From the NCBI GenBank assembly GCA_022844165.1, contig JALHMH010000013.1, positions 54,045 to 118,044 on the forward strand: a stretch of 64,000 nucleotides of DNA, given 5' to 3'. The notes under the pieces were generated by a model that made no database searches, was not told the DNA's origin, and was given only the letters and a program-made list of their open reading frames with translations. Source of the DNA: Lysobacterales bacterium (GTDB lineage: Bacteria > Pseudomonadota > Gammaproteobacteria > Xanthomonadales > SZUA-5). The position numbers and the translations under genes were made by a program. This document shows positions 31,248-54,270 of this stretch, piece by piece; the first letter of the stretch is position 1; each line of letters begins with the position of its first letter.

Positions 31248-31495
31248 GTCCTTGACGGAGACTGATCTCGACAAATGAGTCAAATTTTCTTAGGAGCGGC
31301 TTTAGCTTTTGCAGCCCCTTAAGTTAAGGGGGTGAGACGCGGCGCTGACACGCCGCAGGCGTGTGCCGAGTCGAACGCCCGGCGGCTGCGCCGCTGGGCC
31401 GGAAATGCGAAGCCCGGGTTGTGGGAAATACGGTGTCTGGCGAAGCCAACAATGCGCGTCGGTCTGAGGCAAAGCCTCGCCAGTGCTTTCGGTTC
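31248..31495 (+). repeat. Dispersed intergenic repeat copy R1 (about 250 bp, multi-hairpin)
   Basis: Very similar to the reverse complement of 49680-49923 and to 54104-54270; lies between convergent tonB and amylase genes. Confidence 0.85.
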
Positions 31496-33180: not shown

Positions 33181-33955
33181 TTAACCCGCATATTTCATGA
33201 GGGAACGCGGAAGATCGCGAAGGGTGAGAGCGAGCAAGCTTGCGCCGCATGCGGCGCGCTCGCTCGAACGGGTGGCGGCTGTGCCGCCACACCGGACTGA
33301 AGGCTGGCAAGCTTGCGCCGCATGCGGCGCGCTCGCTCGAACGGGTGGCGGCTGTGCCGCCACACCGGACTGAAGGCTGACGAGCTTGCGCCGCATGCGG
33401 CGCGCACGCTCGAACGGGTGGCGGCTGTGCCGCCACACCGGACTGAAGGCTGGCGAGCTTGCGCCGCGCGAGCTGCGCGCCAGACTGAACGACTGGCGGC
33501 TGCGCCGCCAGGCCGGACCTTTGCGCCGGAATCGAGGCGCGAGAAGGGTGAGAGCGGGCAAACTTGCGCCGCATGCGGCGCGCCAGCTCGAACGGGCGGC
33601 GGCTGCGCCGTTGCACTGGGCGGAATGGTTGACCCGGCCCGTCAGCGTAGCTGCCGGGCGCTCTGAGCATCGCGCGCTGCGCGCGCAAGCGATGCTCCTC
33701 GCCCATTGCGACGACGAGCTTTGAGTCGTCCGGCGCAAAGAACGAGCGAGGGTGAGGCGGGATTTCCGCCGCATGCGGCGCGCCGCCGAACGCCAGCGCA
33801 TGGATGCGCTGGCCGGAGGGGCGAAGCAGGAAGCGCAGCCGTGCTAGCGAGGAAATGGCAGCGGACAGCCTGTCATTCCAACCAATTCGAAGGTTCCGCG
33901 CCGTTACAACGAAATGAGGCCATTTCATCGCGACCTCATGAAATATGCGGGTTAA
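33181..33955. mobile_element. Putative non-autonomous TTAA-type element (MITE-like) with 22-bp terminal inverted repeats
   Basis: ttaacccgcatatttcatgagg (33181-33202) and its exact reverse complement cctcatgaaatatgcgggttaa (33934-33955); no credible transposase ORF inside; palindrome-rich interior. Confidence 0.65.
33236..33527. repeat. 73-bp tandem repeat array of two-hairpin units
   Basis: Unit starts at 33236, 33309, 33382 and 33455 (exact 73-bp spacing); each has GCGCCGCATGCGGCGC and a GGCGGC-loop-GCCGCC hairpin, the fourth diverged. Confidence 0.92.
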
Positions 33956-34040: not shown

Positions 34041-36824
34041 CTATGGCGTGAGTAAGCGTTGCAACTCTTCGGCCGCTCGCCGGAATTCAATGCTCGCTTG
34101 ACGTGCCATCCCGACAGTGTCGCGCAGCGTACCCGCACGCGCACCATGTTCGATCAACTTTGCCACGTCAGACAACGCCATCGCACCCAGGTTTGCGCTG
34201 GTCGATTTCAGCGAGTGCGCAGGTGCAATCATGGCCTGGACATCGCCTCGCTCCGCTGCTCCATTCAGGATCTTTAAGTTCGTTGGAGTGTCCTCAAGGT
34301 AGACCTTGACCAGCGACGTAAACTCGTTGCCCATCACATCGATCAGCTCATTGACGATTGCTTCGTTAATGGCGGGCGCTTGGGGCGTTAGCCGGACAGG
34401 CTCGCTTAGTCGCACTGGAACCGGCGCCGGCGAGGGGCCCGGAGCAGCCGGCGCAGGCTTAACCTCTTGCGCCGACACTCGCAACTCGGCCAGAACCGCA
34501 GGCTGCTCGATGGCTGCCGCAACGGTGGACCTGGTGGATTTTGGCATCCATTTGCGGATGGTTTGTTCGAGCAAGCCACGGTTAAGCGGTTTGCTCATGT
34601 AGTCGTCCATCCCAGAAGCGAGGCACTTCTCGCGATCCCCAGCCATCGCATTTGCAGTCATCGCGATGATCGGTATACGCGTCAGGCCCTTTTCCTGTTC
34701 AAGTGTGCGGCGCGATCGGGTCGAAGTGTAGCCGTCCATGACTGGCATTTGGCAATCCATGAGCACGACATCGAAACCGCCTCGACCCATCAGATCCAAT
34801 GCGTCTTTTCCGTTTTCAGCAATTTCGAACGTAATGCCGATCAACCCAAGCAGCCGTTGCGCAACCTGACGATTGACTGGATTGTCTTCAACCAGCAGGG
34901 CGTGACCACCCAGCTTACCGGTTTCAGTTCGCGCGCCGACATCAATCGGTGGCGCGGTATCTTGCCCCAGGCGCGCGGCCTCCTCCAGCAAGTTGAAGCG
35001 CCGCTCGCTACCTGCATCGACAAGCAGCGCCTTGTTTAATGCGCCCATGAGATCGGCATCGGTGAACTGCCGTTTGATCAACTGACTTCGGGCCGGGTCA
35101 TTGCCCAATTCAGCTGGCGGTGACTCCTCACCCTCGATATGAACCACCTTGAGCCGCTCAAGGACCGGCTCGCGACCGACGTTGCGATAGAGTGCCGGAG
35201 CTGTCGTGCGCATGCTGCCCAAATCAACAATGACCACATCGAATGCCCAGTTCTCGCCCAATGTGGCCGAAGACTTCAGTTTGCTCAATGCGTCTGCGGT
35301 GGTGTTCGTCGAAATCTGGCTCATGCCCCACATCTGGCATTGACCCGTGATTCGCTGCGTCAGCCGTTGATCTCCACTGACGATCAGCGCGCGGGCGCCG
35401 GCCAGATCTCGCCGATGGCTACTGACATCGCCCAGCGCTTTCAATAAGGGGACGCTGAACCAAAACACCGAACCCTTCCCGGGTTCGCTTTTCAGCCCAA
35501 TCTTCCCGCCCATGAGCTCAACGATTCGTTTGCAGATCACTAAGCCAAGGCCGGTGCCGCCGTAGTTGCGCGTGGTCGAAGTGTCGGCCTGCGAAAATGG
35601 CTGGAACAGCTTCTCGGCCTTCTCCGGCGAGATGCCAACCCCAGTGTCGCGGACTGCGAAAAGCACTTCGCTATGCGTTCGCGTTTCGCCGCGTTTGCTG
35701 ATTTGGATCGCGATAGAACCCTTGTCCGTGAACTTAACCCCATTGCTGACGAGATTTGACAGCACCTGACGCAAACGAACCGGGTCGCCACGGCACGCCA
35801 ATCGAACATTGGGATCGAAGCTGACTGAGATTTTCAGCCCTTTGTTCTCAGCGGAGCGCTCCATCAAGCGGAAGACCGAATCAACCACATCTTTGAGATT
35901 CAGTCCGACGCTCTCAAGCTCAAGCTTGTTGGCCTCAATCTTCGAGTAGTCGAGAATATCGTCGATGATCCTCAGCAGATGGCGAGCAGACGAGTACGCA
36001 GTATTCAAGTACTCACGTTGGTCGACTTCCAGTTTGGTATCACGCAGGATTTCGAGCAATGGAATGATGCCGTTGAGCGGCGTGCGCATTTCATGGCTCA
36101 TCGTTGCCAAAAATTCGCCCTTCGCCATGTTTGCGGCTTCTGCGGCCTGCCTGGCGCCTTCCATCTCCTTTTCGAGATTGCGCTGGCGTTCCAATTCACC
36201 GCGCAGCTGTGTCAGCTCCACAACGTCGATGGTGGTGGCCTGCACGACCCTCTCCACCGGCTGCGCGGATTCCACGATTTGGGGCGACTCTAAGACCGTT
36301 TCTCGGCTTACCAACCACCAATGGCCAGAGACGATCAGTGCTATCGCAGCGACGGCGATCAATCCACCTTCTGCGCCAAACAGCTGCCAGGCGCCAGGCA
36401 ATAGCAGCACGCTCAGAGCCGTGACCACAAGCCAAAGCTGCGAGTGAAACAACCAAATCACCGCCAATGCCAAACCCACCAATGCCAGATGCAAAGGCGA
36501 GTTGGCATGGACTTGACCAAGAACGAATGGAGCAGCGCCCCACTGCAGGGCGCCCGCTACCACCAACATCTGCGCAATCGAAGTGTTCGGTTCCGGCCCG
36601 CGCTCCGCCAGACGGCGCGCCCAGTAAGCCGCGCCAGCCGTGCCTAGCAGCAGAACACACCAAATCGCGATCCGTGTCGGTTCCGCAAAGCCAATCGACG
36701 CGTATGCCACCAGCAGCGACAAAACGCCAGAACAAAGACACCACCGGATCGCAGCATGCATCATGGTTTGACTGCGCTCATCAGGCTGAGCAGACCGCGA
36801 CTTCATTCGAAGCGCCAGCAACAT
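34041..36824 (-). CDS. Hybrid sensor histidine kinase with pseudo-REC, REC and C-terminal Hpt (GacS/BarA/RpfC-like architecture)
   Basis: N-terminal TM segments; [65 protein letters not shown]...[11 protein letters not shown]; Hpt [18 protein letters not shown]. Start uncertain (ORF opens at 36905). Confidence 0.93.
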
Positions 36825-36849
36825 CGATGGTTCCACACATACCCCCGTT

Positions 36850-39558
36850 TTACAGTGCTGATGCGCTGAAGTCGAAACCGAGATCGGTTCCTGGTTGCTG
36901 AACAAAATTACCTTGAATGAGGTCTACACCCAAAGTCCAGAGTGTGGCTGCGCTCTGCGCATTTTCCACTTTCGCAGCAATCACATACTTACCGCCATCG
37001 TGTGCTGCACGAATGAGCGTCCGCAACTCATCGGACGCGTAATTACCGTTGCCCGTCGTGTACTTGTCTGCCAGTTTCAGAAAGTCTGCGCTAAGTACGC
37101 TCAACAACTGCAGAGCGGTCAGGCTGCCGTCGAACTCATCAACCACCACCCGCACGCCGAGCTTGCGAACCGACTCAAAAAACGCCAGCGCTTCGCGCAT
37201 ACTCGACAACACATCGCTCAATTTCACTTCGAGCACGACCGCATCCGGTGCAATGCGTCTGGTTTCCAGTTGCTGTCTGAGCCATGGAATGCGTTCGGCA
37301 TCCATCGTGCTTTCGACACACTGGTTAATGAACAAGCGCACTGGTCGTCCCTGGCGCTTGCGATCCTCGATAATTCGCAAACATTGCGCCAGGCACCATC
37401 GGTCGATAGCCACCACCAACCCTGCGGAACGAGCTGCATCAAGGACCTGCGCCGCGCCGATCATGTCGCCGCCTTCGGAGCGCATTCGCAGCAGCACCTC
37501 ATACTGTTCCTCACCGGTGGAATGCAACGAGACGATCGGTTGGAACAACAGTTGCAACTGATCGCCATCTAAGGCCGCGCGAACTGCATCTGCGAGCGTA
37601 GAACCCTCGCTCGCCTCATGCACATGAACCGCGACTCCTGTCGGTAACTGCCGGGCTCGCACGGATGCCCGTTCGGCCGCATTGAGCATATCGGCCGCGT
37701 CGGCAAGGTGCGTCGAGAACGGCGCGACGCCGATGCGCGCAGCAACACGCACGCTGTGCTGGTCGACTTCCACCATATCCTGAGCCAGCTTGGCGACGAT
37801 GGACGCTGCTAACGACTGAAGCGCCGGCAGCGCCCGCGCGCTGCTCAACAACACGAAACTCGAATCGCCATAACGCGTGGCCAGTTCGTTTTCTTGAGTA
37901 AAACTGGCGATCGTTGCGCCAAGTTGCCGCAGGACAGGCTCGTAGACGGCCAAGCCGCGTTGCTCCCGCAACTTCTGCATCCCTTCAATATCGATAAAGA
38001 GGATGCCGCCGTGTTGTTGGCTGCGATCATCAACATTGAGCAACTCGTTGAGTCGGTCAATGAGATAGGTTCGATAATACAAGCCGGTCGTGCTGTCGCG
38101 CGGATCGACGGTCTTTCGCCTTGCCATCTGACGCGCGCGTCTGGCACGGTTATTGACGGCTGAGATCAGGTGTTTGGGGCGAATCGGCTTCGCCAGGAAA
38201 TCGTCCCCTCCTGCGGAAAGTGCCTCGAAGTGCTTCTCGGAGTCTTGTTCGCCCGACAAAAAGACAATTGGCGTATTGATGAACTGTTCGCGCTCGCGAA
38301 TGATCGATGTCAGCTCCATGCCTGAGATATTGGGCATGTACAAATCCATCAAGATCAAATCGGGTTTGAAGCGTTCCAGTCGATCCAGCGTTTCGAGCGG
38401 ATCGGTGATCGCCAGAGTCTCGAACCCGGCTTTGCGCAGGACCGATTCGGCGAAGATCGCCTGACTGCGGTCGTCCTCAACAATCATGACCTTGAATGGA
38501 TCGGAGGTTGTCAGCTCCAACAACTCGCGAGCTCTTTTTGTTGCGTCTTTCGCGGAAATCGGCAAAGGGATGAAGAGATCCGCACCTGCGCGCATTGCCT
38601 TGAGCCTTGCAGCGAGATCGTTCTCGACCGAAAACGTCAGGAGCGGGATCTTAAGTTGAGTACTTGCGCGAACACGCTTGATAAACTCACCCAGGTGTTC
38701 GAGTTGCTCGAAGAAACTTGCATCGATGACCACTGCCTCTGCCGTCAACGACCCTAACGCTTCCTTGAGTTCCTCAGAAGAACTCAAGCGTTCCACCTGG
38801 AAATTCAGCTCCAGCAAATGGTGTGACAATTCTCTTGCAAACGGCGCGACATCCGAAAGATAGAAAATTCGACCGGCAACCGTCTGTCGCTCCGGCTTCT
38901 CGGAAATAGGATGAGGTGCGGCGTTCGCAGCCGCGGGCGCAACGTTGGCGTCGAGTCCGAACACGCTCGTTGCATTGACGATTTGTGCAGGCGCATCAAG
39001 TCGCAGCCCCGGCGGCTCGGGATCGCCCAAGACCCACTCTTTGGGCGGCGCGATGGTCAATCGCGCAGGCGCTGTCCCATGCGTTTCGCTGGTGATCAGC
39101 GAAATATCGCTTTGGCTGAAGCGACGCCAGCAATCCTCGGGTGGGCGCAGGAACAATGGGACGTTTGAGCCAGCCAGCTTGTCCGGCGGGGCAACGACGA
39201 AATCGCGCGGGTTGCGGATTTGCGGCGCTGGCGGGTTGGCGACTTCGATCAACCCATCGAGCAGCAGGGCAATCTGTTGCTTGTCGGCGCTCTCGGGCAA
39301 ACGCAGTTGTTTGATCAAGGGTTCGAGCGCCCGCTCGATCTGAAACAACTTTTCACTTCCGTCCACCAGACCGTAGCGTCCAGCAGCGCCCGCCAACCCC
39401 TGCACGTCCTGATACAACAGTGTGACCGTATTGACGTCCCAATCGCCCTTGCAAATCCGCAGTCCTCGCTTGCGAATGGCCTCTGCGCGGCGCGGCAAGT
39501 GCTTCAGGAACGCCTGACGCAATTCGGCATGGTGTTGGGATTCGTCCTTCGGCAGCAC
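36850..39558 (-). CDS. Response regulator with degenerate GGDEF and EAL domains (FimX-like)
   Basis: REC FKVMIVEDDRSQAIFAESVL...LILMDLYMPNISGME; GGDEF replaced by ATRYGDSSFVLL; EAL replaced by YEVLLRM; DDFGTG replaced by DEFDGS; C-terminus VDLIQGNFVQQPGTDLGFDFS. Confidence 0.88.
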   Translation of the reverse strand: MLPKDESQHHAELRQAFLKHLPRRAEAIRKRGLRICKGDWDVNTVTLLYQDVQGLAGAAGRYGLVDGSEKLFQIERALEPLIKQLRLPESADKQQIALLLDGLIEVANPPAPQIRNPRDFVVAPPDKLAGSNVPLFLRPPEDCWRRFSQSDISLITSETHGTAPARLTIAPPKEWVLGDPEPPGLRLDAPAQIVNATSVFGLDANVAPAAANAAPHPISEKPERQTVAGRIFYLSDVAPFARELSHHLLELNFQVERLSSSEELKEALGSLTAEAVVIDASFFEQLEHLGEFIKRVRASTQLKIPLLTFSVENDLAARLKAMRAGADLFIPLPISAKDATKRARELLELTTSDPFKVMIVEDDRSQAIFAESVLRKAGFETLAITDPLETLDRLERFKPDLILMDLYMPNISGMELTSIIREREQFINTPIVFLSGEQDSEKHFEALSAGGDDFLAKPIRPKHLISAVNNRARRARQMARRKTVDPRDSTTGLYYRTYLIDRLNELLNVDDRSQQHGGILFIDIEGMQKLREQRGLAVYEPVLRQLGATIASFTQENELATRYGDSSFVLLSSARALPALQSLAASIVAKLAQDMVEVDQHSVRVAARIGVAPFSTHLADAADMLNAAERASVRARQLPTGVAVHVHEASEGSTLADAVRAALDGDQLQLLFQPIVSLHSTGEEQYEVLLRMRSEGGDMIGAAQVLDAARSAGLVVAIDRWCLAQCLRIIEDRKRQGRPVRLFINQCVESTMDAERIPWLRQQLETRRIAPDAVVLEVKLSDVLSSMREALAFFESVRKLGVRVVVDEFDGSLTALQLLSVLSADFLKLADKYTTGNGNYASDELRTLIRAAHDGGKYVIAAKVENAQSAATLWTLGVDLIQGNFVQQPGTDLGFDFSASAL

Positions 39559-49679: not shown

Positions 49680-49923
49680 AGAGATTCCAGCGAGGCTTCG
49701 CCTCAGACCGCCGAGCATTGCTGGCTTCGTCCGACAGCGTACTCGCCACAACCCCGCGCTTCGTATTTCCGGCCCAGCGGCGCAGCCGCCGGGCGTTCGA
49801 CTCGGCACACGCCTGCGGCGTGTCAGCGCCGAGTCTCACCCCCATGACTCAAGGGGCTGCAAAAGCCAAAGCCGCTCCGCAGCGAATTTGACTCAAATGT
49901 ACAGATCCGGCTCCGTCAAGGAC
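49680..49923 (-). repeat. Dispersed intergenic repeat copy R2
   Basis: Reverse complement gtccttgacggagccggat...tttgagtcaaatt...gcagccccttgag...ggcgctgacacgccgcaggcgtgtgccgagtcgaacgcccggcggctgcgccgctgggccgga nearly matches R1. Confidence 0.85.
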
Positions 49924-54103: not shown

Positions 54104-54270
54104 TCCTTGACTGAGCGGGATCTTGTCATTTGAGTCAAGTTTTCGTCGGAGCGGCTTTGGCTGTTGAAGCCCCCATTGAGTACAAGGGGGTGGAGGATCG
54201 GCGCTTACACGCCGCAAGGCGTGTGCCGAGCCGAACGACCGGCGGCTGTGCCGCCGGGCCGAGCGGCATC
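54104..54270 (+). repeat. Dispersed intergenic repeat copy R3
   Basis: gtccttgactgagcgggatcttgtcatttgagtcaagttttcgtcggagcggctttggctgttgaagccccc...cacgccgcaaggcgtgtgccgagccgaacgaccggcggctgtgccgccggg; between convergent sodB and purK. Confidence 0.85.

Follow-up and report, generated by a model that had tools for sequence, protein, structure and literature searches.

A miniature element with IS1380-type ends and a modular interior of double-hairpin units in a Lysobacterales genome

Bacterial MITEs, such as MITEPye1 of the IS1182 type (PMC11578231), are short, non-coding, multicopy elements with IS-type ends and target duplications. A review of prokaryote MITEs (PMC10969869) makes no mention of IS1380, and we found no MITE of IS1380 kind in the open-licence literature searched. 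Elements of the IS1380 family (PF13701) have termini of the form CCCG(G/C)ATATTTCATGA and a short target duplication. Small palindromes that occur at high copy number, form arrays, and keep their structure longer than their sequence are represented by REP, BIME, and REPIN sequences with RAYT (PMC2817692, PMC3116915), and units of two hairpins that are viewed as mobile have been described in mitochondria (PMC2800124).

The cassette analysed here, from a 64-kb stretch of DNA (the window), shares with the IS1380 family the terminal form, the short target duplication, and a matching IS in the same genus. It differs from that family in lacking a transposase gene, in having a core of 246 bp rather than about 1.6 kb, and in its internal hairpin units, while IS1380 ends and a modular interior of exact units set it apart from the bacterial MITEs described. 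The units are small, structured, and present in arrays like REP sequences, but they start (GG)GTGA, with TGA or GTGA following GG, whereas the REP head is GTAG/GTGG (table in PMC2817692), and GAACG links the two hairpins of a unit, which differ from each other and share one orientation. They also differ from the Stenotrophomonas and Xanthomonas REP sequences compiled in PMC2817692. The likeness to the mitochondrial elements, which belong to organelle genomes, is one of description and serves as an analogy only; the literature searched held no bacterial counterpart of them, and a search for the unit by sequence gave only unrelated matches in the open-licence literature.

The element proper measures 767 bp (window 33185-33951) and ends in perfect 18-bp terminal inverted repeats, CCCGCATATTTCATGAGG, with TTAA on both sides (Table 1). 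The initial annotation had given the terminal repeats as 22 bp, and that sequence, TTAACCCGCATATTTCATGAGG, is indeed exact at 33181-33202, as is its reverse complement at 33934-33955, but the true repeat is 18 bp plus a 4-bp TTAA. Because TTAA is its own reverse complement, it extends the symmetry of an 18-bp repeat followed by a 4-bp duplication, and the repeat appears to be 22 bp long; the 18 bp recur unchanged in further copies, next to CTAG, TTAG, or CTAA. With up to 3 mismatches allowed, TTAACCCGCATATTTCATGAGG matches the window at these two places only and has no match in 100 shuffles. The cassette lies between a gene for an alpha-amylase-domain protein (31637 to about 33055, minus strand) and one for a hybrid histidine kinase (34041-36905, minus strand). 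Four ORFs inside the element have no Pfam match, in keeping with the earlier remark that no transposase-like ORF lies within it, and the proposed hairpin-array interior was confirmed by a predicted RNA fold 12 sd below that of shuffles and by four units of 73-75 bp in tandem. Shorter than 1 kb, multicopy, and without recognisable coding capacity, the element is a MITE, and we regard its assignment to the IS1380 kind as solid.

Table 1. Positions of the parts of the element in the window
Feature	Position	Strand	Basis or remark
Left copy of TTAA target duplication	33181..33184	.	Perfect 4-bp duplications at 27/30 copies of the sister genome
Left 18-bp terminal inverted repeat CCCGCATATTTCATGAGG	33185..33202	+	Form as in IS1380 element ends
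Module site 1, head-to-tail array of four double-hairpin units	33225..33518	+	Clean insertion, core GCGAAGGG^CTTTGCG
Units of site 1	33225-33297, 33298-33370, 33371-33443, 33444-33518	+	
Module site 2, single 73-nt double-hairpin unit	33546..33618	+	
Module site 3, single 69-nt double-hairpin unit, reversed	33632..33700	-	
Module site 4, 86-nt insert with double-hairpin unit (GTGAGGCGGG...CTGGCCGGAG)	33752..33837	+	
Right arm of core, contains GCGGACAGCCTGTCAT	33838..33951	+	Distance to terminus matches GCGGACAGTCTGTCAT in sister IS1380
Right 18-bp terminal inverted repeat	33934..33951	-	
Right copy of TTAA target duplication	33952..33955	.	

Further copies with the same ends, which the initial annotation had named as a check, are present both in the window's own genome and in a sister genome. 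The former, a 4.68-Mb draft, contains 20 matches to the terminal sequence within 3 mismatches (reversed control: none), and the latter, the Lysobacterales MAG Bin_30_3_3, contains 130 exact ends (reversed control pattern: 0) and about 60 related MITE copies; the other 98 relatives searched yielded a single exact end match. Perfect 4-bp duplications flank 27 of 30 sister-genome copies examined, and 26 of these have the form YTAR (CTAG 14, TTAG 5, TTAA 5, CTAA 2; the remaining one is CTAT). Such YTAR duplications are a signature of transposition, and they bear out the proposal that the TTAA pair in the window is a 4-bp target duplication. The suggested TTAA targeting of piggyBac/IS1380 type held in respect of the IS1380 ends, while the target proved to be YTAR, most often CTAG, and not strictly TTAA.

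A DDE transposase with matching ends, for which the initial annotation proposed a search, belongs to the IS1380 family and was found in the sister genome as well as in many relatives. The sister genome has one intact IS1380 transposase of 455 aa (PF13701, DDE_Tnp_1_4; 1e-161, profile positions 3-432 of 435), in an element that ends in CCCGGATATTTCATGA / CCCGAATTTTTCATCA with TTAG on both sides; these ends differ from those of the MITE by 2 bases on one side and 5 on the other. Among relatives of this transposase in named genomes, some loci yielded no clear ends, and the ends that could be delimited are mostly CCCG(G/C)ATATTTCATGA or a TTGC variant, often flanked on both sides by CTAG, TTAG, or CTAA. 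The right arm of the MITE and the transposase-upstream end of the sister IS also have in common GCGGACAG(C/T)CTGTCAT, 57 and 58 nt from the terminus, although this subterminal homology is short and its score is reached by 6 and 10 of 500 shuffles (6/500 for the right arm). As a general IS1380 feature, GACAG-CTGTC was rejected; among the relatives checked it is clear only in the same-genus IS and the MITE.

No PF13701 transposase was found in the draft assembly of the window's own genome; a resident partner does not define every MITE, and one can be lost. We consider it very likely that the cassette is a non-autonomous MITE of IS1380 kind with a 246-bp core, presumably mobilised in trans and carrying putatively mobile or excisable double-hairpin passengers. 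In this view, the element ends would be cut by an IS1380 DDE transposase acting from elsewhere, and the element would have inserted at YTAR with duplication of 4 bp. The partner gene missing from the assembly may have been lost, may lie in an assembly gap, or may never have been resident, and the IS1380 of the sister genome may not be the exact partner, its ends differing by a few bases. The MITE widens the IS1380 family by a miniature member that is multicopy and has YTAR as its clear target.

At the orthologous locus of the sister genome, the cassette is absent: flanking homology ends at 81510 and restarts at 81587, leaving 76 bp between the flanks as against about 880 bp in the window. The check for an empty site thus found a related genome without the cassette, yet one that has not kept the exact single TTAA; because the intergenic sequence has diverged, a clean single-TTAA junction is not demonstrable.

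In the sister genome, 38 copies have the commonest form, of 246 bp, and two more have one unit inserted. Longer copies depart from this core at four exact sites (core positions 40, 67, 80, and 131), where inserts of 73, 73, 69, and 86-87 nt, respectively, are found, in the combinations none, {1}, {2,3}, {1,2}, {1,2,3}, {1,3,4}, and {1,2,3,4}. Two sister-genome copies carry one 73-nt unit in a core about 99% identical to that of unit-free copies, and the site 1 junction, GCGAAGGG^CTTTGCG, has neither a duplication nor microhomology. Cores only 1-2 bases apart carry different units; a single base separates the cores of L282 {1} and L034 {none}, and likewise those of L288 {1,3,4} and L258 {none}. 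Since entire, exactly bounded units distinguish near-identical cores, a structured unit of roughly 73 nt can be cleanly gained or lost in a bacterial genome, and the many MITE copies serve as a natural assay of insertion for another, smaller element. What had been described as palindromic repeat cargo does consist of hairpin units, but these are discrete modules with exact boundaries that are present or absent, not random cargo.

The units may be mobile themselves or precisely excisable, and recombination would then reshuffle these passengers among MITE copies; gene conversion among copies could yield the same unit combinations without any movement of units. On a tree of the cores, 6-9 changes are needed per site, although many branches are weakly supported. 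The deepest branches are unit-bearing, which makes presence of units in the MITE probably ancestral and frequent loss likely, within the limits of the weak tree support and of possible gene conversion. An ancestral presence would suit immobile units that have long belonged to the MITE, disappear through deletions provoked by their hairpins, and spread in combinations by gene conversion, with the array produced by slippage. Tandem expansion does occur, and conversion has ample room among about 60 near-identical copies, but neither the exact presence or absence at site 1 nor its junction without microhomology is what this explanation would lead one to expect.

The occurrence of the same structure outside this MITE also counts against immobile units. 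A second MITE of the window's own genome, 229 bp long, with unrelated ends (TGTGGTGTTCCGT) and usually located at CTAG, has a unit inside (L161-L174); one of its copies (L164) is 298 bp long, 69 bp above the 229-bp form, and the extra match is a second unit. Units are likewise placed within tRNA genes and close to the 3' ends of genes in other genomes of Gammaproteobacteria, including other genera. We hold immobility of the units to be possible but somewhat doubtful.

In 11 of 34 loci, the 5' edge of the unit coincides with the end of a direct repeat of the flanking target, usually exactly after GG; the control gave 0 of 134 usable positions, its two matches being N runs. In two cases the repeat is the 3' end of a gene, and the encoded peptide (SKLGVRDRTRAVLKALEAKLV and NGGLLQYVLRQLAAKKAA) is identical in the two copies, all differences between them being silent. 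These two cases suggest that each copy once belonged to a working gene and hence that a foreign gene end arrived with the unit. Direct repeats of a gene 3' end or of part of a tRNA enclose units at L193, L196, L231, L333, and L213, and further at L215, L217, L219, L225, and L332; L193 and L196 are the loci with the same-peptide copies.

Tentatively, and at rather less than even confidence, the unit, about 73 nt long and of the form GGGTGA to CCGGR, might represent a class of minimal mobile DNA of Gammaproteobacteria not described before, one that inserts exactly after GG without a short duplication, travels as a passenger of unrelated MITEs, and, where it meets a tRNA gene or the 3' end of a gene, brings a foreign target end that keeps the gene intact. 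The presence of this structure in other genera, in tRNA genes and at the ends of genes, in two cases between gene-end copies with silent differences alone, would make the movement of such tiny units directly testable. A single-strand mechanism like that of IS200/IS605 would fit the hairpins and the absence of a short duplication, but it leaves the long target repeats unexplained, and although Y1 transposase genes occur in 9 of 10 genomes tested, none of the 23 loci surrounding them has a significant unit match. With this result and the different head sequence, the units were also rejected as classical REPs or Y1 satellites.

The unit has the form (GG)GTGA, then stem A, within which lie GCTT and an inner hairpin, followed by GAACG and then by hairpin B and CCGG. 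In an alignment of 46 units that was fitted to the model, and so is biased towards the structure, two-sided changes affect 21 of 21 pairs, 94.8% of cells are paired, and the covariation score is reached by 0 of 500 shuffles; a MAFFT alignment of 10 units that was not fitted to structure still shows two-sided changes in 14 of 21 pairs, with 92% of cells paired. Searches with a covariance model placed units in 18 of 100 relatives; the corresponding figures are 12 of 274 genomes for the class Gammaproteobacteria and 14 of 399 for a phylum sample, in which all 14 belong to the Gammaproteobacteria.

Covariation this strong, present even in the alignment not fitted to structure, could mean that the interior is a functional structured RNA, such as a regulatory RNA or an array of terminators, for which the MITE is merely the carrier, and the placement of unit copies within tRNA genes and at the 3' ends of genes would suit such a role. 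Yet no Rfam family reaches its curated threshold, two genomes have many copies (among the candidates scored in each genome) and other family members few or none, and a conserved structure is equally expected of elements processed as single-stranded DNA, for example REP sequences. We think a functional RNA unlikely. Far less probable still is a strict-TTAA, piggyBac-like element, since TTAA on both sides, as in the window copy and 5 of the 27 sister copies, is outnumbered by CTAG alone, most copies have CTAG, TTAG, or CTAA, and the matching transposase is PF13701, of IS1380.

Several single loci add detail on the units. The window has three more units outside the cassette, at 31330-31406 (+), 49765-49841 (-), and 54189-54266 (+), each preceded by a common stretch that resembles a third dispersed repeat (GTCCTTGAC...GGAGCGGCTTTGGC). 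At L177/L078 in the window's own genome and at L328 in another family, a unit lies at the end of what is apparently the same gene (ending SKCG), with the GGGTGA of the unit providing the final glycine and the stop codon. On contig 5 of the window's own genome (L178:1000-1460), tandem repeats of about 100 bp with an assembly gap inside contain a hairpin that is identical at 30 of 31 bases to the hairpin at window 33788-33818.
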